From a virus: a DNA stretch of 30,104 nt. A program made the translations under genes and the position numbers. The stretch covers positions 1-30,104 of IMG/VR virus record IMGVR_UViG_3300017748_000068; one strand, given 5' to 3'. A model generated the notes under the pieces. The model saw nothing but the letters and a program-made list of their open reading frames with translations, had not been told where the DNA came from and did no database searches. Every line of letters begins with the position of its first letter. Within the stretch, counting starts at the first letter, position 1. Shown here piece by piece: positions 5,514 to 20,524 of this stretch.

Positions 5514-5876
5514 CTATTTAAAGTCAAAGTTATTAAAAAATTTTGAATAATTATTTGTCAAACTTAATCTTACGGCTAATCTTGTACCATCATTTTTAAA
5601 AATAAAAAAACCTTCAAATTTTTCTACCCATATCGCAAAATAATCTACATCTACTTTTTCATAAGTTCGTTTCCATTGTATGTGTACAGTTTTTCTATTT
5701 CTTTGAAAACCTTGAAATGTTGATTTGATTTGAATTCTATAAATATTATCTCCAGTGTCTGCAAGACAATCATATACGGAAGTATGGAGCAAGGGATAGG
5801 ATATTTTTATGTCTCTTTTAAGACATTCAATACCGAATTTATATTCAGCAATACAACCCTTTGAATTGCTATCCAC
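5514..5876 (-). CDS. PD-(D/E)XK endonuclease (PDDEXK_5, group I intron-associated type)
   Basis: This 120-residue nuclease-like protein opens with SKGCIAEYKFGIECL, in which KG..aE provides the first acidic residue. It continues with SVYDCLADTGDNIYRIQIKST, giving the Asp and the (I/V)QIK Lys of a PD-(D/E)XK core. This pattern matches the PF11645 endonucleases, some of which are associated with group I introns or act as free-standing mobile nucleases. The start is GTG at 5876; there is no Met elsewhere in the protein, and the frame is open further upstream only through a terminator hairpin. It interrupts the usual run from capsid to connector and has a terminator on either side, as expected for an acquired cassette (moron). 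Cleavage activity is inferred. Confidence 0.75.
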   Translation of the reverse strand: MDSNSKGCIAEYKFGIECLKRDIKISYPLLHTSVYDCLADTGDNIYRIQIKSTFQGFQRNRKTVHIQWKRTYEKVDVDYFAIWVEKFEGFFIFKNDGTRLAVRLSLTNNYSKFFNNFDFK

Positions 5877-8442: not shown

Positions 8443-8637
8443 TTAATTTTCTATATATATTAATTCACCACCATCGAGTTGATTTGTCTTTTCAATAATT
8501 GATATTTGCCTACCATTTGAATTCTTTAACATTTCAGTAATAACATCAATATCAAATTGCATAATCCAAAAACCAGGTGATTCAGCTTTTGGGTGTAAGT
8601 TTTCGTATTGTTCTACAAGTTTTTCAAATTCCCCCAT
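8443..8637 (-). CDS. Hypothetical protein (64 aa) between MuF and protease
   Basis: This small acidic protein starts at ATG 8637, overlapping the MuF 3' end by 14 bases. It has an N-terminal helix (MGEFEKLVEQYENLH) and a middle segment (ESPGFWIMQFDIDVITEML). It ends 12 bases before the protease start. No family is recognised. Its place inside the morphogenesis operon suggests a head-assembly accessory or a virion component. The overlap and tight spacing support it being real. Confidence 0.6.
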   Translation of the reverse strand: MGEFEKLVEQYENLHPKAESPGFWIMQFDIDVITEMLKNSNGRQISIIEKTNQLDGGELIYIEN

Positions 8638-10174
8638 TTGTTTTGTTTATTAAAGTTTGTATTAATTGCCTTGTTTCTTCATATATTTCAGGGTACAAGT
8701 ATTTAAATATTTTATTTCCTTGATAAAAATTTTCAAATGAATGTGCCATTACTTCTGCATATTGACCATAAACACCTCTGCTTGTGTAATATGATTTAGA
8801 ATGACCAAAACCAACTTTATTTTTAGTTAAAGCACCAAAAAAATCTGACATTGCACCGTGTTCATAAAGAAAATCCATTCTGTCCATATCACTAAATTTT
8901 TCTCTTAATTGTGCAATCTTCTGCCTATCATTTAATCTTCTAAATGGTTGTAATTTTTGTTGTTGTATTTCATTGCTTTGTTTGTATCCTAATTGTTTTC
9001 TCCATTTTTCAAAAGCATTTTTAACATCATCATCTAAAATTGGTTTAGATTTTGCAAAAACATTAACATCTGCCCATTTTCTTTGTTTATGAACTATATG
9101 TCCTATTTCGTGTACTAAAACCTGGTTAAGTTTAAATTTTGTGTTATGTGTCTTAATGTTAATTTCAATTGTATTTCCTCGTGCAAAAGAATCCCCCCTT
9201 TGTTTTATTTTTACACTCATAGGTTTGTTTAACAATTTTGTTATCTCCATTGCTTTATCATCAATATCATAACCTTGTTTTTTTAAATCATCTATTTCTT
9301 TTGGATAAAAGTTTGGTTTTCCTTCTTGCACGACTCGTTGTCTTGGAACTCTAACTGGCATAGGTTCTATTCTTTGTGGTATTGAACCCTGTATAATTTC
9401 TTCTTTAGGGAATGGTGCGTTGGTACATCTACAATTAATAACATTTGCAGCACTTCCTGAACTATCACCTGGATAACTTAATTCCTCACCACCAACCATA
9501 AACTTTTTATCCATATCGACTATTTGTCCATTGGCTTGTATGTGATCTATTCTTGTTCTATTGTCAAAGGTTGCAATCCATTCTTTTTGTAAGTTTTCTT
9601 TACCAAAAACATCAGTAGCACTTTGATTCGTAGCATAGTTTGCAGCATTGACACTTTCTGTTCTAACAATTCGCTTTGCATTGTTTACAGACATATCCTT
9701 AAACTTCTTTCTTAATATTCTCCCTGCTTGTACCTCATTCATTGATTGAAAGTCAGGATCTGCCATATATCTTTTTAATGTCTTGACAAACTCTTTTCTT
9801 CGATTACCACCCACACTAACTATTCTTGCACCTGCTACCTCATTTCCTATGTATGCAAACTTTTCATTCCATATATCCTCATATTCAATATGAGTGTTTT
9901 TAGTTATGTATTTGTGAAAGTTTTGAGCATACCACTTGGCAAACTTATTTCCAACCTCTTGGTACAACTCTACATAAAGAGTTATTAGGTCGCTATCCTT
10001 AAATTTAAATTGTAAGTCAGGTATTTGTTTATTCGCTTTTAAAAACTCATCAATTATTTGATTGTTTTCACCCACAAGATATTTTGTCCATTTCTTATCT
10101 TGTTTCGCTTCTTCAATGTCTAATTGATTAAGCCAATCCTTATGATAAGTTTTTTTAAATTTTTTAGTCAGCAT
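8624..10174 (-). CDS. MuF-type head morphogenesis protein fused to zincin metallopeptidase domain
   Basis: This 516-residue two-domain protein is a minor head protein. The N-terminal half is MuF/SPP1 gp7-like: AKRIVRTESVNAANYAT (about 166-182), WIATFDNRTRIDHI (199-212) and YPGDSSGSAANVINCRC (234-250). MuF proteins sit inside the head near the portal and can be ejected with DNA. The C-terminal domain (about 290-516) has VHEIGHIVHKQ with the zinc-binding HEIGH at 355-359 and a later acidic helix (QYAEVMAHSFENF, about 471-483) that could supply the third ligand. Polymorphic C-terminal enzyme or toxin domains on MuF proteins are known, and this looks like one. It overlaps the portal gene by 11 bases. 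The peptidase substrate is unknown. Confidence 0.85.
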   Translation of the reverse strand: MLTKKFKKTYHKDWLNQLDIEEAKQDKKWTKYLVGENNQIIDEFLKANKQIPDLQFKFKDSDLITLYVELYQEVGNKFAKWYAQNFHKYITKNTHIEYEDIWNEKFAYIGNEVAGARIVSVGGNRRKEFVKTLKRYMADPDFQSMNEVQAGRILRKKFKDMSVNNAKRIVRTESVNAANYATNQSATDVFGKENLQKEWIATFDNRTRIDHIQANGQIVDMDKKFMVGGEELSYPGDSSGSAANVINCRCTNAPFPKEEIIQGSIPQRIEPMPVRVPRQRVVQEGKPNFYPKEIDDLKKQGYDIDDKAMEITKLLNKPMSVKIKQRGDSFARGNTIEINIKTHNTKFKLNQVLVHEIGHIVHKQRKWADVNVFAKSKPILDDDVKNAFEKWRKQLGYKQSNEIQQQKLQPFRRLNDRQKIAQLREKFSDMDRMDFLYEHGAMSDFFGALTKNKVGFGHSKSYYTSRGVYGQYAEVMAHSFENFYQGNKIFKYLYPEIYEETRQLIQTLINKTNGGI

Positions 10175-12374
10175 TTTGAGAAATCTTTTTAGCCCAAGAA
10201 ATCATTGCTTTTCCACCCCAAAGATTATAAGCAACATACCCTTTGTCTTTATAAGGTTCGTTTCTATAATCTTCTGATATTTTTGCATTATCCTCGTGTC
10301 TTGCTAAAAAGCTATTGATTCGTTTTACAGTATCAAGTGATATTGGTTCTCTATTTGCAAGTTGATTTGCTCGTTTCCAACCAACTTCTGTACCACCCTT
10401 GACTACATCACGACCATATTTCTCTCTCCATTCTAACATTCTCTTTGCATTGTTAGTAGCACCTTGTGGGTAATCATTATAGCTTTCGGCTTTAGTAATC
10501 GATTTCTTGCTTGACATTGGGTGTCCACTTGGTAAAAGGTCTGTGTCGTGTTTACCACTTCTAAATTTACCATTACGAAGAACATATAAAAATGAATTTA
10601 CTCTTGCATAAGCCCATTGATCTTCACTTGTAACACTTGGTCTTACTGATGATGGATTGTTTCTATATGCACCAACACCTCTATTGAATACAGTTTGCAA
10701 AGTTCTATAAGAAGTTCTTTTTGATTTATTGTCGCCAACTTTCTCATTGTGTTCCTCTACCTTGTTTTTAAGACCAGTTTCTACTGCACTACCAGGTTTT
10801 ACTGGTTTATCAATATATTCATCTTTAACATCTTGTCCAATGATTGCAATATAATCTTCGTGTGATGCACACGGCATATAAATCTTATTTCCATTATCAT
10901 CGTGTGAATGAACACCTTGACAACCTATTGCTTCTGCTCTTTCACTTGCTTCGGTTTCGGTTGTATAGACATCTCTACGAACCTCTCTCTTAACATCAAG
11001 AAGTTCATCGTAATTTACTTTAACACTTTTAAAATCATCTGCAATCACCTCATCTTGTAATGGCATAAGATTCATTGGAATATAGTAATCATTAAGTTTA
11101 TCATTGTCAGCTTCAACACCATAACTCATTGCTTGTCTTTTCTCATTTGGAGTTAGCCACCAAGCCTGACTCATTTGCCCAACCACTTTATCCATTTCTT
11201 CTTGCATTTCAGAAATACTTGTGTAATCAAAGTCAATGTATAGTTTATCGCCATAAGCAGGAACTAACCATCTGTTTAATTCATCTTTGATTTTATTAAG
11301 TTCAGGAATTACTGCATTTTGATACAATGTCTTTTTAGCTTCTATTACATTGTTGTATGTAGAAGATTCTGTGTTGTTTAAAAGAACTGCAGGTACAGAA
11401 TAAATATTACATAAATCTTTAATACTTGCATTGTACTGTTCTATAAGAGATAAATCAGATGCAGACATTCCAAAGTTAATCCAAGATAGTTTCTTTGGTG
11501 TTATTACAATATCACCTGCACTATTAGAACCTTGATAGTTTTGTCTAAACTTCTCTTTTAATTGTTGTGCTTGAACTTCATTAATATCCCCCTCATCACT
11601 CATAAGCACACCTCTTGCAGTTTGATTCTGTAAATACTTCGCACCAGTTGTAACTGCTTCGTTATTCGTATCTAACGATCTTAAACCTGCTTTAAGTGGC
11701 GACATTCCGTACAAATGACTACCAGTTCCATCATAATAAGGGTTAAAATCTTTAATGTGGCAAATATCCTCTGCTGCCATCTTATATTGCCCATTGTACT
11801 CTAATGAGTATGATTTGATTGGATCAAATATTCCACCACTATTAATCTCTACCTTTTGACTTGGTAATACATATAATTCTTTGAATTTGCCTTTATTAGC
11901 ACCTGTATCAGGTTTTAAACCATAGATGTAACGATTACCAGTTAGTTTACCAAAAGCTATTATCTCTTGAATCCAAGCATTGTATGATTGTGCAGGATTA
12001 GGTCTTGATAGTAAATCGTGTAGTTCTGTATCTGCCACTTCTTCAAGAGCGTGTTTTCTTAAAACCTCTGCTTTGTGTAATGCAGAACCATTAGCGATAC
12101 CACTTGTCATTGCTTTGTATCTCTTTAACTCATTCTCACTTTTAATCTCATATATCTGAAATGGAATTGTTGCTGCCGTTTTAGCAATAAGATTTACAAT
12201 AGAATATATAGTTGTGTTGTATTGATAACCCTTTTCAATGTATGTACTATCGTTTTCAGGATTCCAAATAATACTATTCCCTATGTAGTTATATATCGCT
12301 TTATTAAACTCTGCATTAGTTTGTTGAAAATTCTTTGATACGAGTTTCTGAAATCTTGATAATATTGATGCCAT
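10164..12374 (-). CDS. Portal protein (HK97 family) with 280-residue multi-module C-terminal extension
   Basis: Residues 1 to about 455 form a normal HK97-type portal: KGYQYNTTIYSIVNLIA near 48-64, ELHDLLSRPNPAQSYNAW (116-133), TGNRYIYGL, then the clip and helix regions ending with TPNEKRQAMSYG (407-418). The chain then continues with three further modules. Residues 472-512 carry Cys484, His488, His490, Cys501 and His504 in a GCQGVHSH...YMPCASHEDY pattern that looks metal-binding. Residues 526-620 carry ETGLKNKVEEHNE and WAYARVNSFL. Residues 632-732 carry a helical MLEWREKYGRDVV and NLWGG module. These look like modules I have seen as separate phage proteins of unknown function, so this seems to be a fusion. 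A TATTTTTG box lies 18 bases upstream of ATG 12374. Confidence 0.88.
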   Translation of the reverse strand: MASILSRFQKLVSKNFQQTNAEFNKAIYNYIGNSIIWNPENDSTYIEKGYQYNTTIYSIVNLIAKTAATIPFQIYEIKSENELKRYKAMTSGIANGSALHKAEVLRKHALEEVADTELHDLLSRPNPAQSYNAWIQEIIAFGKLTGNRYIYGLKPDTGANKGKFKELYVLPSQKVEINSGGIFDPIKSYSLEYNGQYKMAAEDICHIKDFNPYYDGTGSHLYGMSPLKAGLRSLDTNNEAVTTGAKYLQNQTARGVLMSDEGDINEVQAQQLKEKFRQNYQGSNSAGDIVITPKKLSWINFGMSASDLSLIEQYNASIKDLCNIYSVPAVLLNNTESSTYNNVIEAKKTLYQNAVIPELNKIKDELNRWLVPAYGDKLYIDFDYTSISEMQEEMDKVVGQMSQAWWLTPNEKRQAMSYGVEADNDKLNDYYIPMNLMPLQDEVIADDFKSVKVNYDELLDVKREVRRDVYTTETEASERAEAIGCQGVHSHDDNGNKIYMPCASHEDYIAIIGQDVKDEYIDKPVKPGSAVETGLKNKVEEHNEKVGDNKSKRTSYRTLQTVFNRGVGAYRNNPSSVRPSVTSEDQWAYARVNSFLYVLRNGKFRSGKHDTDLLPSGHPMSSKKSITKAESYNDYPQGATNNAKRMLEWREKYGRDVVKGGTEVGWKRANQLANREPISLDTVKRINSFLARHEDNAKISEDYRNEPYKDKGYVAYNLWGGKAMISWAKKISQNAD

Positions 12375-15414: not shown

Positions 15415-17088
15415 TTAAAACGGTATATTGTCTTTTATTACTTCAAACCTTTGTTTGTCTTTATCTATTTCTTTATACACACCCCCATTTTTAAAATCAG
15501 GTGCAACCATAAAATCGCCTTGTTTGCCATTTTCTTTTCTCTTTACCTTTTGAACATATACTTGTACACTATCACTTCCATAAATAGTTTTTTGACCAAG
15601 ATTTCTATAAACAGTAATACAATTATATGCTTTATTAAAAAAGTCAGATGATTGAGAAATGTCATAAGGATTCGGTACTCTATATTTACCATCAACACTT
15701 TCCATCTTTCTTGGGTGTGCAACAAGAAATAAATGAGTATTGGTTTGTTGGCAGAACTGGGTTATTTCCGATAATAGTTTTCCTACATAAGTAAAATCTC
15801 TTTGTGCAGAATGGTCTAACATATTATATGGATCAATCACACATACATTTACACCTTTTTGGAATACAAGTTGCTTAAAAGCATCTAAAATGCCTTTTAG
15901 GGTTAAGTTTTCGATGTCTATTCGAACAAAGAAAAAGTGTTCCTCAATAAATGTTTTTGTATTGTTTAAATCTTGGGTAGTACATTCTTTCTCATTTATC
16001 TTATTTGCTAACCTTTTTATGTGCGATTCATAAGGGAATGATTCAGGTGAAAACATTGCTACTCTAAAGTTTTCTTGTAATGCAAGATTAACACATATTT
16101 GGTCGATGACATCTGACTTTCCTGCATTTGGAATCCCTGTGCATACAGTCCATTCTCCGAAGCTAATGTTATAATACTCAGTAGAGTTTCCCAATCGCAC
16201 ATTATAATTCTTGATTCCATTCTCGTTAAAGTTTAAAACACTATCCCAAATATCGTTAATATTTAGTACACCCTCAATCGGAAAGTTCTTTGCTTTACTA
16301 ACAACTTCTCGAAGTTCACTTGCACCTTTGTTGATTAATATATCGTTAGCATCTTTATAATCGCCAAATTCAACATACTTACATCTACCTTGTCCAAATC
16401 TTCTTGCAAGTTCTCCTCGAAGTGATAATCCTGCCTGGTCGTTATCTGTACATAATATAATCTCTGTTTTATCCACAAAGTATTCCCAACAGTTGTCAAG
16501 ATATTCTAATCGTTGTGATCCTTTAGATGCACCATTGGGAACTGAACAAACACTATAAAGACCTGCTTCGTGTAATGATAAAGCATCTATTTCGCCCTCA
16601 ACAATATAAATCTTTTCCATTTCCTTGATATTATCAAGACCATAAAAGATAAGTTCAGCATCTTTAAAAAGTTTAAAATTCTTTTGTCCATCACGATACT
16701 TGATGTTTATTAGTTGCTTTTCACGATAGTAATTAAAGTTGATTGCTATTCTTTCTTTTTTGACTTGTGGAAAATACTCTATGGATTCGCTAATGTTCCA
16801 ATTAACGATTGTGGTTTCTGATATACCTCTTTTAGCAAACCACTTTAGAGTTTTATCTGATAATTCAGATTTAACCTCAATAGGTTTTACATATTCTTTT
16901 TTTGGTTGAAGATTTACATTACCACTATATCCACAATGATGACAGTTGAATAAACCTTTTGGTTCATTTATGGATAAGCACCTTTCGGTTTTCTTTTTTC
17001 TTGTACTACTACACTTTGGACAAGTAGTGTGGAACTCACCAGTTTTAAAACCAATGTCAATTCCAAAATCTAAAAATTTATCTTTCAT
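15415..17088 (-). CDS. T7 gp4/Twinkle-like primase-helicase
   Basis: This 557-residue bifunctional replication enzyme has an N-terminal zinc ribbon with CPKC (23-26) and CHHC (49-52). A TOPRIM primase domain follows with VEGEIDALS (Glu at 164 and 166) and TDNDQAG (Asp215, Asp217). A RecA-like helicase domain has Walker A GIPNAGKS (318-325), Walker B VCVIDPYN (Asp419) and FLVAHPRK (454-461). I start at ATG 17088, which gives an 11-base overlap with the upstream gene; the frame extends to a TTG at 17118, but that adds 10 residues that do not look conserved. It should unwind and prime DNA for a host or off-window polymerase, as none is encoded here. Confidence 0.94.
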   Translation of the reverse strand: MKDKFLDFGIDIGFKTGEFHTTCPKCSSTRKKKTERCLSINEPKGLFNCHHCGYSGNVNLQPKKEYVKPIEVKSELSDKTLKWFAKRGISETTIVNWNISESIEYFPQVKKERIAINFNYYREKQLINIKYRDGQKNFKLFKDAELIFYGLDNIKEMEKIYIVEGEIDALSLHEAGLYSVCSVPNGASKGSQRLEYLDNCWEYFVDKTEIILCTDNDQAGLSLRGELARRFGQGRCKYVEFGDYKDANDILINKGASELREVVSKAKNFPIEGVLNINDIWDSVLNFNENGIKNYNVRLGNSTEYYNISFGEWTVCTGIPNAGKSDVIDQICVNLALQENFRVAMFSPESFPYESHIKRLANKINEKECTTQDLNNTKTFIEEHFFFVRIDIENLTLKGILDAFKQLVFQKGVNVCVIDPYNMLDHSAQRDFTYVGKLLSEITQFCQQTNTHLFLVAHPRKMESVDGKYRVPNPYDISQSSDFFNKAYNCITVYRNLGQKTIYGSDSVQVYVQKVKRKENGKQGDFMVAPDFKNGGVYKEIDKDKQRFEVIKDNIPF

Positions 17089-17407
17089 TAAAGTTTTCTT
17101 TATAATTATTCCTTTCAACTTCTAATTTATAAAAATTAAATGATTGCATACCAATAATATGAGCATCAGTTGGTACAAAATATTGCCAACCCTTTGACAT
17201 ACCTCTATTGAGATAGTAAAAAAAGAAAACTGCTTTCTTGCCAGTGTTCTTTTTAAATATTACCGAAGCCGTATGATCTGACATTGGAATAACCTCAACA
17301 ACTTTAAATATTTCATTGTTAAAATTACCCTCACGATTCTTTTTAGAAAAGTTATCAGCTACGACCTCAGCTTTTGCTTTTAGTTCTTTGACAAGAGATT
17401 TATTCAT
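17078..17407 (-). CDS. Hypothetical protein (109 aa) in replication operon
   Basis: This 109-residue basic protein starts at ATG 17407, overlapping the upstream gene by 8 bases. An N-terminal helix (MNKSLVKELKAKAEVVADNF) is followed by a beta-rich core (FKVVEVIPMSDHTASVIFKK, then KKAVFFFYYLNRGMSKGWQY). The core looks like a small single-domain fold, possibly nucleic-acid binding, but no family is recognised. It is sandwiched between a nucleotide hydrolase-like gene and the primase-helicase, and overlaps both, so a replication accessory role is likely. Confidence 0.6.
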   Translation of the reverse strand: MNKSLVKELKAKAEVVADNFSKKNREGNFNNEIFKVVEVIPMSDHTASVIFKKNTGKKAVFFFYYLNRGMSKGWQYFVPTDAHIIGMQSFNFYKLEVERNNYKENFNER

Positions 17408-17705
17408 CGTTCATCTCTAAAAACTTCTCCAATGCACCAAGTGTTCTCCAAGCAGCTTTACCAAGATGTAATAATCCATCTTCATCTAATGGTTCTTCTG
17501 TATGGTCTATTAAATGCCTTACACAAGCATCTAATTCATCTTTAGATTTTTCCCTATCCCAATGAAGTGGTGTTCCAGGATTGTGTTGTTCATTTCCAAC
17601 ATAACTTACTTTAGAAACATATCTAATTGCTTTTGGAAAATATTTTAGAACTCCTGAAAAAACAGGAATTTCTTTTCTTTCTTGATGTTTATTCTTTTTA
17701 CTCAT
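17400..17705 (-). CDS. MazG/MazZ-like dNTP pyrophosphohydrolase (dATP/dGTP diphosphohydrolase N-terminal, DUF5664-like)
   Basis: This 101-residue all-helical protein matches the pattern of DUF5664. A helix ends in YVSKVSYVGNEQHNPG, followed by WDREKSKDELDACVRHLIDH and DEDGLLHLGKAAWRTLGALE. The family consensus is 'D..lRHl......De..GL.HL..aa.n...ll'. Acidic residues in the second and third helices would bind metal and the triphosphate. Enzymes of this group hydrolyse dNTPs or house-clean nucleotides, and one relative works in 2-aminoadenine (Z) synthesis. No PurZ-like gene is present here, so general dNTP pool control is the safer reading. It overlaps the upstream HTH gene by 4 bases. Confidence 0.65.
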   Translation of the reverse strand: MSKKNKHQERKEIPVFSGVLKYFPKAIRYVSKVSYVGNEQHNPGTPLHWDREKSKDELDACVRHLIDHTEEPLDEDGLLHLGKAAWRTLGALEKFLEMNDE

Positions 17706-18385
17706 ATATTTATTTGTTTTAGATTCTTACCAAACTTGGCTTCGAATAGGTTAATGTATTTTAAACCATCTTTATTTTTCTTTCTAAGTTTTAAAATGGT
17801 CAAAAAATTGTTTTTCCAAAAATCATCTGTTCTAACTTTTTGGACTATGTAATAAACTTTTCTTGGTGAATAACCATCTAACCTTTCAAGTTTATCGATA
17901 CAATCAAGCCAAGAGTTTTTATCGGCTTGTGTTTTTGGTTGTGTTTGAATTGGAAATAACTCACATATTGGTTCAAATGATTTTAAAACCATATCTGAAA
18001 ATTCTTTCTTCTTATATTCTAATGTATTATTATTGTTATTTATATATATATTATCCTGGTGATTATCTTCTATAGGGGGTGCATTTTTTTTCACTACCTC
18101 ACGAAAATTTATGATGTATATTTCACGACTTTCAATTTCCTTTGAATTTTCTTTATAAGTCATTTTTAATTTAATATATTTTCTTGTTTTTAATTGTCCA
18201 ATCCAATCGGTAATTGATCTTGTTTTTACACCATATAGGTCAGCAAAATATTTATTTCTTGCAAAACAAAAACCTTTTTCATTACATAGGGCAGTAATTT
18301 CGCCATACAATAATTTGGCATTAGGGGTTAGTGTTTGGTCATATCTGACAAATGCAGGTATGATAGCATAATAACTTTTTTTCAT
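17702..18385 (-). CDS. Helix-turn-helix replication protein (HTH_36, replisome organizer-like)
   Basis: This 227-residue protein has a winged helix-turn-helix of the HTH_36 type at the N-terminus: YYAIIPAFVRYDQTLTPNAK, then LYGEITALCNEKGFCFARN, then LYGVKTRSITDWIGQLKTRK. This domain is usual in phage replication initiators that bind the origin and load the helicase. An Asn-rich linker (five consecutive Asn, around residue 118) separates it from a C-terminal helical domain (about 130-227) of the kind that binds partners in DnaD-like proteins. The origin might lie within or near this gene, as in many phages, but no iterons were evident by eye. Confidence 0.75.
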   Translation of the reverse strand: MKKSYYAIIPAFVRYDQTLTPNAKLLYGEITALCNEKGFCFARNKYFADLYGVKTRSITDWIGQLKTRKYIKLKMTYKENSKEIESREIYIINFREVVKKNAPPIEDNHQDNIYINNNNNTLEYKKKEFSDMVLKSFEPICELFPIQTQPKTQADKNSWLDCIDKLERLDGYSPRKVYYIVQKVRTDDFWKNNFLTILKLRKKNKDGLKYINLFEAKFGKNLKQINI

Positions 18386-18392
18386 TTAATCT

Positions 18393-18647
18393 TTACAGGT
18401 TTTCGGTAATGTTTTTTAATTCATTACAAAATTTTCTTAATCGGTCATACATTAATTGGACATCTTCAAATGAAATTTCTTCATCTTGAAACTTTAAAAA
18501 AAGTGCTTCAATTAATAGATCAAACTCAACTTTAGTTAAAGAACCTATGTAGTCATAGTTTTCAAAGTCATCAAAATTATGATTGACAGTATAACGAATC
18601 CTTTGCTTAGATTCTGACCAATAAACCATTTTATAACTCTGAATCAT
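18393..18647 (-). CDS. Hypothetical protein (84 aa), helical, acidic
   Basis: This small protein starts at ATG 18647, overlapping the upstream gene by 17 bases; ATG 18629 would instead begin one base after the upstream stop and give 78 residues. It has an N-terminal Tyr/Arg-rich beta-like stretch (MVYWSESKQRIRYTVNHN) and two acidic helices (LTKVEFDLLIEALFLKF and SFEDVQLMYDRLRKFCNELK). No family is recognised. Its location between the nuclease fusion and the HTH replication protein suggests a replication accessory factor. Confidence 0.6.
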   Translation of the reverse strand: MIQSYKMVYWSESKQRIRYTVNHNFDDFENYDYIGSLTKVEFDLLIEALFLKFQDEEISFEDVQLMYDRLRKFCNELKNITENL

Positions 18648-19305
18648 TGGGTTTTGATAAATAAAGGTCTATAATTTCAATAGTTTTATCGTAGTCATTT
18701 GTCCAATGACACTCCCAGTTCTCTTTTCTTAATCTTTCTAAAGTTTCTTTTTGACTATCGGTTGGTTTGTTATACCCAATCTTTAATTCGATTGCAAGAC
18801 CATACCTACCAGTTCCACCACCCCTAAATATTAGTATATCAGGAACACCTGCTTTTCCACCTAAATATTTAAACTTAAATCTTTCAAATGGACTTCTTTT
18901 CCCCTCATTTGCAACATGAATTGCATAAACATTAGGATATTGAAAAGCTAAATACTCCATTACACTATGTTGTAATTTATCTTCTTTACTTAAATATTTA
19001 TCAAATGGATTTGCCAACTTATCTATATTTTTTAAACATATTGATTTTAAAGTTAAGTAATTATTTTGGGTTGATTTATTATATTCAAGTAGAAAATTAA
19101 ATTGTTTCATACCATTAACCACTGTCGCGTGGTTTAAATTTACCGATTTACCTAATTTTTCATAGGTCGCACCTGGCACTAATTCTCTTGATAAACTATA
19201 ATAAATACCCCTTGCATCAACATAAACTTGCATTCTTGTTTTTCTTGATATGTTAATTTGAAAATAATCATTTACAATATCCTTAATAATGTTTAAATCT
19301 TTCAT
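18631..19305 (-). CDS. DnaA domain IV-like DNA-binding domain fused to VRR-NUC nuclease
   Basis: This 224-residue protein combines two recognisable domains. Residues about 16-75 match DnaA domain IV: KTRMQVYVDARGIYYSLSR followed by YEKLGKSVNLNHATVVNGM, in which NLNHATVVNGM corresponds to the DnaA signature (DHTTV.hA...) that reads DnaA boxes. Residues about 110-215 match VRR-NUC: KLQHSVMEYLAFQYPNVYA, an NEGKRSPFERFK segment, AGVPDILIF with Asp156, and LAIELK with Glu173 and Lys175, then TDSQ. I start at ATG 19305, whose ATGA overlaps the exonuclease stop; the frame extends to TTG 19317. A site-directed origin nuclease or a junction resolvase is plausible. Both family calls are from motif reading. 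Confidence 0.8.
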   Translation of the reverse strand: MKDLNIIKDIVNDYFQINISRKTRMQVYVDARGIYYSLSRELVPGATYEKLGKSVNLNHATVVNGMKQFNFLLEYNKSTQNNYLTLKSICLKNIDKLANPFDKYLSKEDKLQHSVMEYLAFQYPNVYAIHVANEGKRSPFERFKFKYLGGKAGVPDILIFRGGGTGRYGLAIELKIGYNKPTDSQKETLERLRKENWECHWTNDYDKTIEIIDLYLSKPNDSEL

Positions 19306-20096
19306 CTTTTTTTCCAACCTTTTAAAATTATAGTACCATCATCATCAAAATCTTGGGATTGATACCCAGTTTGAATACCCTTTTCTTTATATAGTTTCCA
19401 AAATGTAAATGCTCTTTCAAAATCTAATTCAGCATTTTCAATAAACACATCATCTAATTTATACACCTCAACACCAAATGGGTGATTAGTTTCACAAGCT
19501 ATAAATCGAAACCTTGATGGATCGATGCCCAACATAAAGCAGTAGAACCAAGCCTGTATGTGATAGTTTCTTGACTTTATATCATAGATAAATTTTTCAG
19601 GTGAACTGTCTTGACAAGTTTTTATATCACTTATCCAATCATCACCCATACAATCAGGTCTAACTCTAACTGGTATGCCTTGATAAGTTCCATAATGAGA
19701 AACCTCAATTTTACCCTTTGACCATTTTTTAACCTTGTCATTGCTAATAAAGTTTTTGTGGATTCCTCGTATGATATTATCTTCATCTTCATCTAAAGCC
19801 ACCTTTCCTTTATTCTTTTCAATAAGTTTTGCCTTCAATTCTTTATCCTCTTTTTTTCTTAGATCAAGTTTTGGAAGAACATAATATTCTTTTTTAAATG
19901 CTTCAATGCCCTCATAACAAATTGTGTGTACAGCATTACCCCTTGTCATAAATTTAGTTGTCTTAATGGGTTTGCGATTTAGATAGTGCCAAACTGATTT
20001 CTCAGCTATGTATTTCAAGCTACTTGCTGAAATTGAATCTTTTGAGTGATATTCCTCAATACTATCATTTTTTACTTCTAAGTTTTCTATTTTCAT
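19302..20096 (-). CDS. PD-(D/E)XK exonuclease (RecE/DUF3799-like)
   Basis: This 264-residue nuclease has the pattern of phage RecE-like/DUF3799 enzymes. There is an N-terminal ISASSLKYI segment, FMTRGNAVHTICYEG (about 49-63) and IEVSHYG with Glu131. The core is PDCMGDDWISDIKT with Asp148, Asp157 and Lys159, followed by Gln181 in HIQAWFYCFML. Such enzymes resect double-stranded DNA ends to leave tails for an annealing protein. The annealing candidate and SSB-like gene lie just upstream in the operon, which completes a recombination module. The 3' end overlaps the next gene by 4 bases. Confidence 0.85.
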   Translation of the reverse strand: MKIENLEVKNDSIEEYHSKDSISASSLKYIAEKSVWHYLNRKPIKTTKFMTRGNAVHTICYEGIEAFKKEYYVLPKLDLRKKEDKELKAKLIEKNKGKVALDEDEDNIIRGIHKNFISNDKVKKWSKGKIEVSHYGTYQGIPVRVRPDCMGDDWISDIKTCQDSSPEKFIYDIKSRNYHIQAWFYCFMLGIDPSRFRFIACETNHPFGVEVYKLDDVFIENAELDFERAFTFWKLYKEKGIQTGYQSQDFDDDGTIILKGWKKR

Positions 20097-20224: not shown

Positions 20225-20524
20225 TTAGAATGGTAAGTCATCATCTTGCTCTGCTTTCACAGGTATAGATTCTGTTTTGACTTCCTTTTTATTAGGTACA
20301 AAGTCGTTAAATTTTAACGATAGTCCACCATCATCATTTTGAGTTAATTGAATAGGTATTTGTTTGTTACCATCATATTCACTCGTTAAAATGTTTGGAT
20401 TCTCCTTTACAAAATTTAATAACACTTTTGGTGTTATAAATCCTTGACCTTTTACAAAGTCAGGTGCATTTTGATGTGGTTTGAATATACTTATTCCTTT
20501 TATGTAAATAGCTTTATTTGCCAT
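20225..20524 (-). CDS. SSB-like single-stranded DNA-binding protein
   Basis: This 99-residue protein ends in QDDDLPF, which matches the acidic C-terminal tip (DDDIPF) that bacterial SSB proteins use to recruit partners. The body (IYIKGISIFKPHQNAPDFVK, GFITPKVLLNFVKENPNI, then LSLKFNDFVPN) is short and beta-rich, as in compact SSB-like proteins of marine phages. It starts one base after the annealing-protein stop and is followed directly by a terminator. It should coat displaced strands during replication and recombination and tether the host or phage machinery via its tail. Confidence 0.75.
   Translation of the reverse strand: MANKAIYIKGISIFKPHQNAPDFVKGQGFITPKVLLNFVKENPNILTSEYDGNKQIPIQLTQNDDGGLSLKFNDFVPNKKEVKTESIPVKAEQDDDLPF

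Follow-up and report, generated by a model that had tools for sequence, protein, structure and literature searches.

The window analysed here, the whole 30,104-nt stretch of the IMG/VR virus record IMGVR_UViG_3300017748_000068, is a near genome-sized virus contig. It carries a gene for a 224-aa protein (MKDLN...NDSEL*) in which DnaA domain IV is joined to a VRR-NUC nuclease domain (Table 1). The coordinates given in the original prediction are correct and the strand is minus, with the plus-strand reading of the same interval being interrupted by stops throughout. The fusion is real and natural and not an artefact, as it recurs in 38 distinct fused relatives.

Table 1. Features of the fusion gene and its neighbours in the window; counts for neighbouring genes refer to fused or split loci with enough flanking sequence
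Feature	Position	Strand	Evidence or remark
Fusion gene, DnaA domain IV + VRR-NUC, 224 aa	18631..19305	-	Pfam, PDB profile matches, AlphaFold, Foldseek
DnaA domain IV (Bac_DnaA_C), residues 6-67	19105..19290	-	Pfam; Foldseek to 1J1V/3PVP
Arg24 (E. coli DnaA R399)	19234..19236	-	invariant
His59 (E. coli DnaA H434)	19129..19131	-	invariant
VRR-NUC nuclease domain, residues 97-217, PD-(D/E)XK core	18655..19017	-	Pfam, alignment, AlphaFold, Foldseek
Codon 97, TTG	19015..19017	-	matches the start of the stand-alone nuclease gene in split relatives; putative internal start
RecE/exonuclease VIII-like gene (DUF3799)	19302..20096	-	directly upstream; 72/72
84-aa gene	18393..18647	-	directly downstream; 80/80
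Replication initiation/helicase-loader-like protein (HTH_36)	17702..18385	-	79/80
TOPRIM DNA primase/helicase	15415..17118	-	listed with a TTG start; the first ATG may be more internal
SSB-like small protein ending DDDLPF	20225..20524	-	acidic tail only; no family match

In searches with the single protein, both Pfam scores were marginally below the gathering cut-offs: Bac_DnaA_C matched residues 6-67 with E 8e-7 and 29.4 bits (cut-off 31.5), and VRR_NUC matched residues 130-197 with E 7e-5 and 23.3 bits (cut-off 23.8). At the DNA level Bac_DnaA_C scored 31.9 bits, above its cut-off; relatives surpassed the Bac_DnaA_C cut-off by a clear margin. Two of these (L156 and L065) exceeded the cut-offs for both domains, and a third relative (L149) exceeded that for VRR_NUC. 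A profile of the fusions matched the VRR-NUC structure 4QBL (E 1e-11) and the DnaA structures 1J1V and 8BTG (E 0.004-0.005). The AlphaFold model of the fusion comprised two confident domains, with a mean pLDDT of 86 and a pTM of 0.56, the latter making the relative placement of the two domains unreliable. Using Foldseek, the nuclease half of the model was aligned to 4QBL with a TM of 0.78, and the N-terminal half, in which the helix-turn-helix fold of domain IV is present, to the DNA-bound DnaA domain IV structures 1J1V and 3PVP (TM 0.79 and 0.86, rmsd 1.4 A). Pfam, the PDB profile matches and the structural comparison agree on both domain assignments, as first predicted, and the motif NLNHATVVNGM, cited then as the DnaA signature, occupies residues 56-66. 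The predicted lack of the DnaA ATPase was also borne out: the AAA+ domain (domain III, PF00308) was found neither in the window nor in six relatives, and the NCBIfam DnaA model gave 27 of 343.9 bits, so that the protein does not count as a DnaA replication initiator.

In the nuclease half, alignment A4 shows no variation at E108, D156, E173, K175 and Q185; these correspond to the catalytic E, D and E-x-K and the partner Gln, which upholds the catalytic Asp, Glu and Lys noted originally. Single-domain VRR-NUC proteins are dimers that cut four-way junctions, that is, Holliday-junction resolvases (PMC4103454), and the protein matched PHROG 5702, annotated as 'Holliday junction resolvase', with E 3e-9. 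By homology, the nuclease half would be expected to cut junctions.

The terminase of the window is closest to those of Bacteroides phages, and Tenacibaculum and Cellulophaga phages are among the closest matches of its primase/helicase, making a Bacteroidota host likely on these similarities. Searches of PHROGs, Pfam, NCBIfam and PADLOC placed the 84-aa protein in no family, and Rfam gave no match. A role in a defence system was considered and set aside, with no PADLOC match. Other observations in the window concern a 101-aa protein at 17400-17705 (minus strand) whose sole match is to the dATP/dGTP diphosphohydrolase N-terminal domain (PF18909); a portal protein at 10164-12374 (minus strand) extended by DUF3721 and DUF5824 regions in Pfam; and a Mu-F-like head protein at 8624-10174 (minus strand; Pfam Phage_Mu_F), the C-terminal part of which contains a metalloprotease-like HEIGH motif (LVHEIGHIVHK). 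A 120-aa PDDEXK_5 nuclease ORF with a GTG start lies at 5514-5876 (minus strand; Pfam E 1e-9, PADLOC homing-endonuclease model E 7e-4), alone between head genes and surrounded by the longest non-coding gaps, and is possibly a freestanding homing endonuclease.

Fused, split and domain-lost relatives

Scans of IMG/VR with uniform classification yielded 102 distinct nucleases, of which 38 are fused to DnaA_C, 51 have a separate DnaA_C gene directly upstream, 12 are without DnaA_C and one is cut by a contig end; these are the closest relatives only, and the proportions of fused and split forms are no survey. Nine of the 12 lone nucleases are only distantly related VRR-NUCs and lie in other gene contexts. 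The split pairs range from genes about 114 nt apart to pairs whose stop-to-stop frames overlap by about 139 nt. Fused and split forms occupy the same slot, with the RecE gene on one side and the 84-aa gene on the other, and exactly one DnaA_C per phage was found in 18/18 fused or split phage records checked.

Three relatives (L139, L140 and L263) have no DnaA_C while retaining RecE, the nuclease and the 84-aa gene, and L139 and L140 still have part of the fused linker ahead of the nuclease, as well as the seam TTG. Since these three do without it, the DnaA domain is not essential to the nuclease, which argues that it modulates the nuclease instead. On the nuclease tree, the fused state requires about six changes, at least three of which are forced by well-supported branches; a single clade of fusions is disfavoured, though not rejected (AU p 0.087).

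A genome scan for host prophages gave no match with a first query; with a second, the only matches were a contig of a Woesearchaeota MAG and a distant case on a Saprospiraceae MAG contig. The former (L046, PBPJ01000031.1) bears a split DnaA_C and VRR-NUC pair and, despite its binning with a Woesearchaeota archaeon, is probably a misbinned phage contig. The latter (L047, JAJCYJ010000801.1) encodes a standalone DnaA_C of 128 aa with a distant VRR-NUC about 3 kb away, and is possibly a prophage. Two further records, MT839682 and MT838018, were rejected as phage relatives, as they hold full-length DnaA genes.

DNA contacts, DnaA boxes and a putative internal start

When the DnaA parts were mapped on E. 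coli DnaA, the equivalents of R399 and H434 were conserved in 86/86 and that of R407 in 85/86. From the E. coli domain IV-DNA structure, we take the first to be the minor-groove arginine and the second to sit in the reading helix. DNA binding is therefore probably kept, with uncertain specificity, and conservation of these three positions suggests that binding is under selection despite the DnaA half being less conserved than the nuclease half. The position of D433 is D or N in most DnaA parts, with N also occurring in one Bacteroidota DnaA (L192, RNHATVLH), and the position of T435 is mostly A, as in that same sequence; a second Bacteroidota-type DnaA (L189, RDHSTVIY) has D and S at the two positions. 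With [DN]H[AS][TS], the reading helix follows the Bacteroidota version of DnaA. The DnaA half is one residue shorter than DnaA before the reading helix. Near this helix, R432 is replaced by L and H439 by N in the window's own lineage, unlike in DnaA and in the split forms, which retain R/K432 and mostly H439, and its specificity may thus have drifted.

Delivery of the nuclease to DnaA boxes on the phage genome, as originally proposed, was not supported, as the boxes are neither enriched nor clustered. The motif TTWTNCACA occurs six times in the window against 7.9 expected, and TTATNCACA occurs 64 times over 38 related records against 44 for the reversed control, with many near-complete records having zero or one copy. 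No convincing iteron arrays or operator repeats were found. Of the roles first envisaged, the resolution of replication or recombination intermediates fits best, given that single-domain VRR-NUC proteins are resolvases and that the gene lies within a recombination/replication operon.

The split nuclease genes of the nearest type begin M-A-N-P-F-D-K-Y-L, while the window reads L-A-N-P-F-D-K-Y-L at the seam between the two halves, with L97 encoded by TTG. In all 38 fusions, an ATG or TTG lies at most three codons from the seam motif, where the split genes start; within the window's clade, nine genes have 80 invariant-Leu columns between them, and only at the seam do all sequences use TTG. Fused and split sequences are related, however, and such counts are not independent. 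In three split relatives (L086, L087 and L046), TTG is the only usable start at the seam. The 20 nt upstream of the seam are mostly A-rich (A 0.35-0.70 against an average of about 0.40), and the RNA at the seam is weakly folded (mean rank 0.23 of all codons, chance 0.5); the longer 81-nt RNA fold around it is unremarkable (z -0.16). Retention of a start codon at the seam of every fused gene suggests a conserved internal start, from which a nuclease-only protein may be made besides the fusion, so that a tethered and a free form might both come from a single gene. ATG is one step from TTG, and the seam TTG may also be an inherited leftover of an ATG.

Proposed role and relation to known systems

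Taken together, we favour, with reservations, a reading in which the gene encodes a Holliday-junction-type VRR-NUC of the phage recombination and replication module that is tethered by its DnaA domain and also made in a free form through the internal start. Before packaging, the nuclease would trim or resolve junctions arising from RecE/annealing recombination and from replication. Through its DnaA-type domain, which is like that of Bacteroidota DnaA, some of the nuclease would most likely be tethered to DNA, perhaps at putative DnaA-box-like sites, and the start at codon 97 (TTG here, ATG or TTG in fused relatives) would probably also give the nuclease alone. A more specific version, which we put forward only tentatively, is that one gene makes two proteins, a junction nuclease steered by its DnaA part to DnaA-type sites of phage or host and a free nuclease, and that it arose repeatedly, in separate phage lineages, by fusion of neighbouring or overlapping genes.

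Alternatively, DnaA_C could be an independent phage regulator or origin-binding protein, with the fusion reflecting mere co-expression of coupled genes and no guided cutting. The standalone DnaA_C proteins of Cellulophaga, Olleya, Nonlabens and Flavobacterium phages, which have no neighbouring VRR-NUC, are what this would lead one to expect, as are the overlapping or tightly spaced split genes, the start codon retained at the seam and the nuclease that outlives the loss of DnaA_C. However, with roughly six fusion/split changes on the tree and a fused form that has stayed stable in large clades, the joint protein would seem to be at least useful or harmless, and the search for origin or operator repeats came back empty; we regard this explanation as rather doubtful. 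A weapon for host take-over, in which the nuclease reaches host DnaA boxes or oriC by way of the DnaA-type domain and so blocks or cuts the origin, seems improbable. The reading helix of this domain is of the Bacteroidota type, so host boxes could be bound, and the phages themselves have few DnaA boxes; yet single-domain VRR-NUC proteins act on branched DNA, the gene is always embedded in the replication/recombination operon, and DnaA_C is dispensable in some relatives. That two separate genes were joined by an assembly error or a frameshift, an idea for which the relatives with overlapping frames might speak, can practically be dismissed, as the same open frame occurs in 38 distinct sequences on many contigs and has a full-length match in an independent collection.

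The tethered junction nuclease that we favour would bring together an origin-reading domain and a nuclease for branched DNA in phages that are widespread as a group, and such a pairing lends itself as a natural experiment on whether sequence can steer junction nucleases. The split, overlapping, fused and domain-lost forms, all at the one syntenic position, further provide a series for the fusion of overlapping genes in which an internal start is kept.

Both domains are known, and it is the pairing itself that is apparently undescribed, in line with the novelty first suggested: no description of DnaA domain IV with VRR-NUC was found in the open-access literature searched, and of the papers containing both 'DnaA' and 'VRR-NUC', none is apparently on the fusion, as far as titles and abstracts tell. 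The same fusion has apparently already been deposited, judging from the structural match, as the unnamed 218-aa viral protein A0A516L0Z0 (BFVD/UniProt), which matches over its full length (214 columns, 41% identical).

Subclass 2.1 of the TnpA-REP (HUH) proteins sets a precedent for DNA-cutting enzymes that carry a Bac_DnaA_C-like domain, in their case at the C-terminus, and their flanking repeats are unlike DnaA boxes (PMC6006769), just as boxes are not enriched in the phages. TnpA-REP differs from the fusion in its HUH transposase chemistry, its opposite domain order and its place in a chromosomal element; no HUH family was found in the Pfam and PHROG scans, and the nuclease fold by Foldseek is PD-(D/E)XK. 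The standalone DnaA_C proteins of Olleya phage Harreka_1, Cellulophaga phage Nekkels_1, Nonlabens phage P12024L and Flavobacterium phage tooticki6-1 share the DNA-binding domain and the host group, but have neither a fused nuclease nor, in those records, an adjacent VRR-NUC gene. Compared with DnaA domain IV itself (1J1V, 3PVP, 8BTG), the fusion has the common fold (rmsd 1.4 A) and the equivalents of R399, R407 and H434, but is without domains I-III, including the AAA+ ATPase, and in the window differs at R432 (L) and H439 (N). With psNUC (4QBL), stNUC and saNUC (Pennell et al. 2014, PMC4103454) it shares the fold (TM 0.78 to 4QBL), the catalytic E/D/E-x-K and the partner Gln, so that cleavage and dimerization would be expected here by homology; unlike these nucleases, it carries an N-terminal DnaA domain IV.
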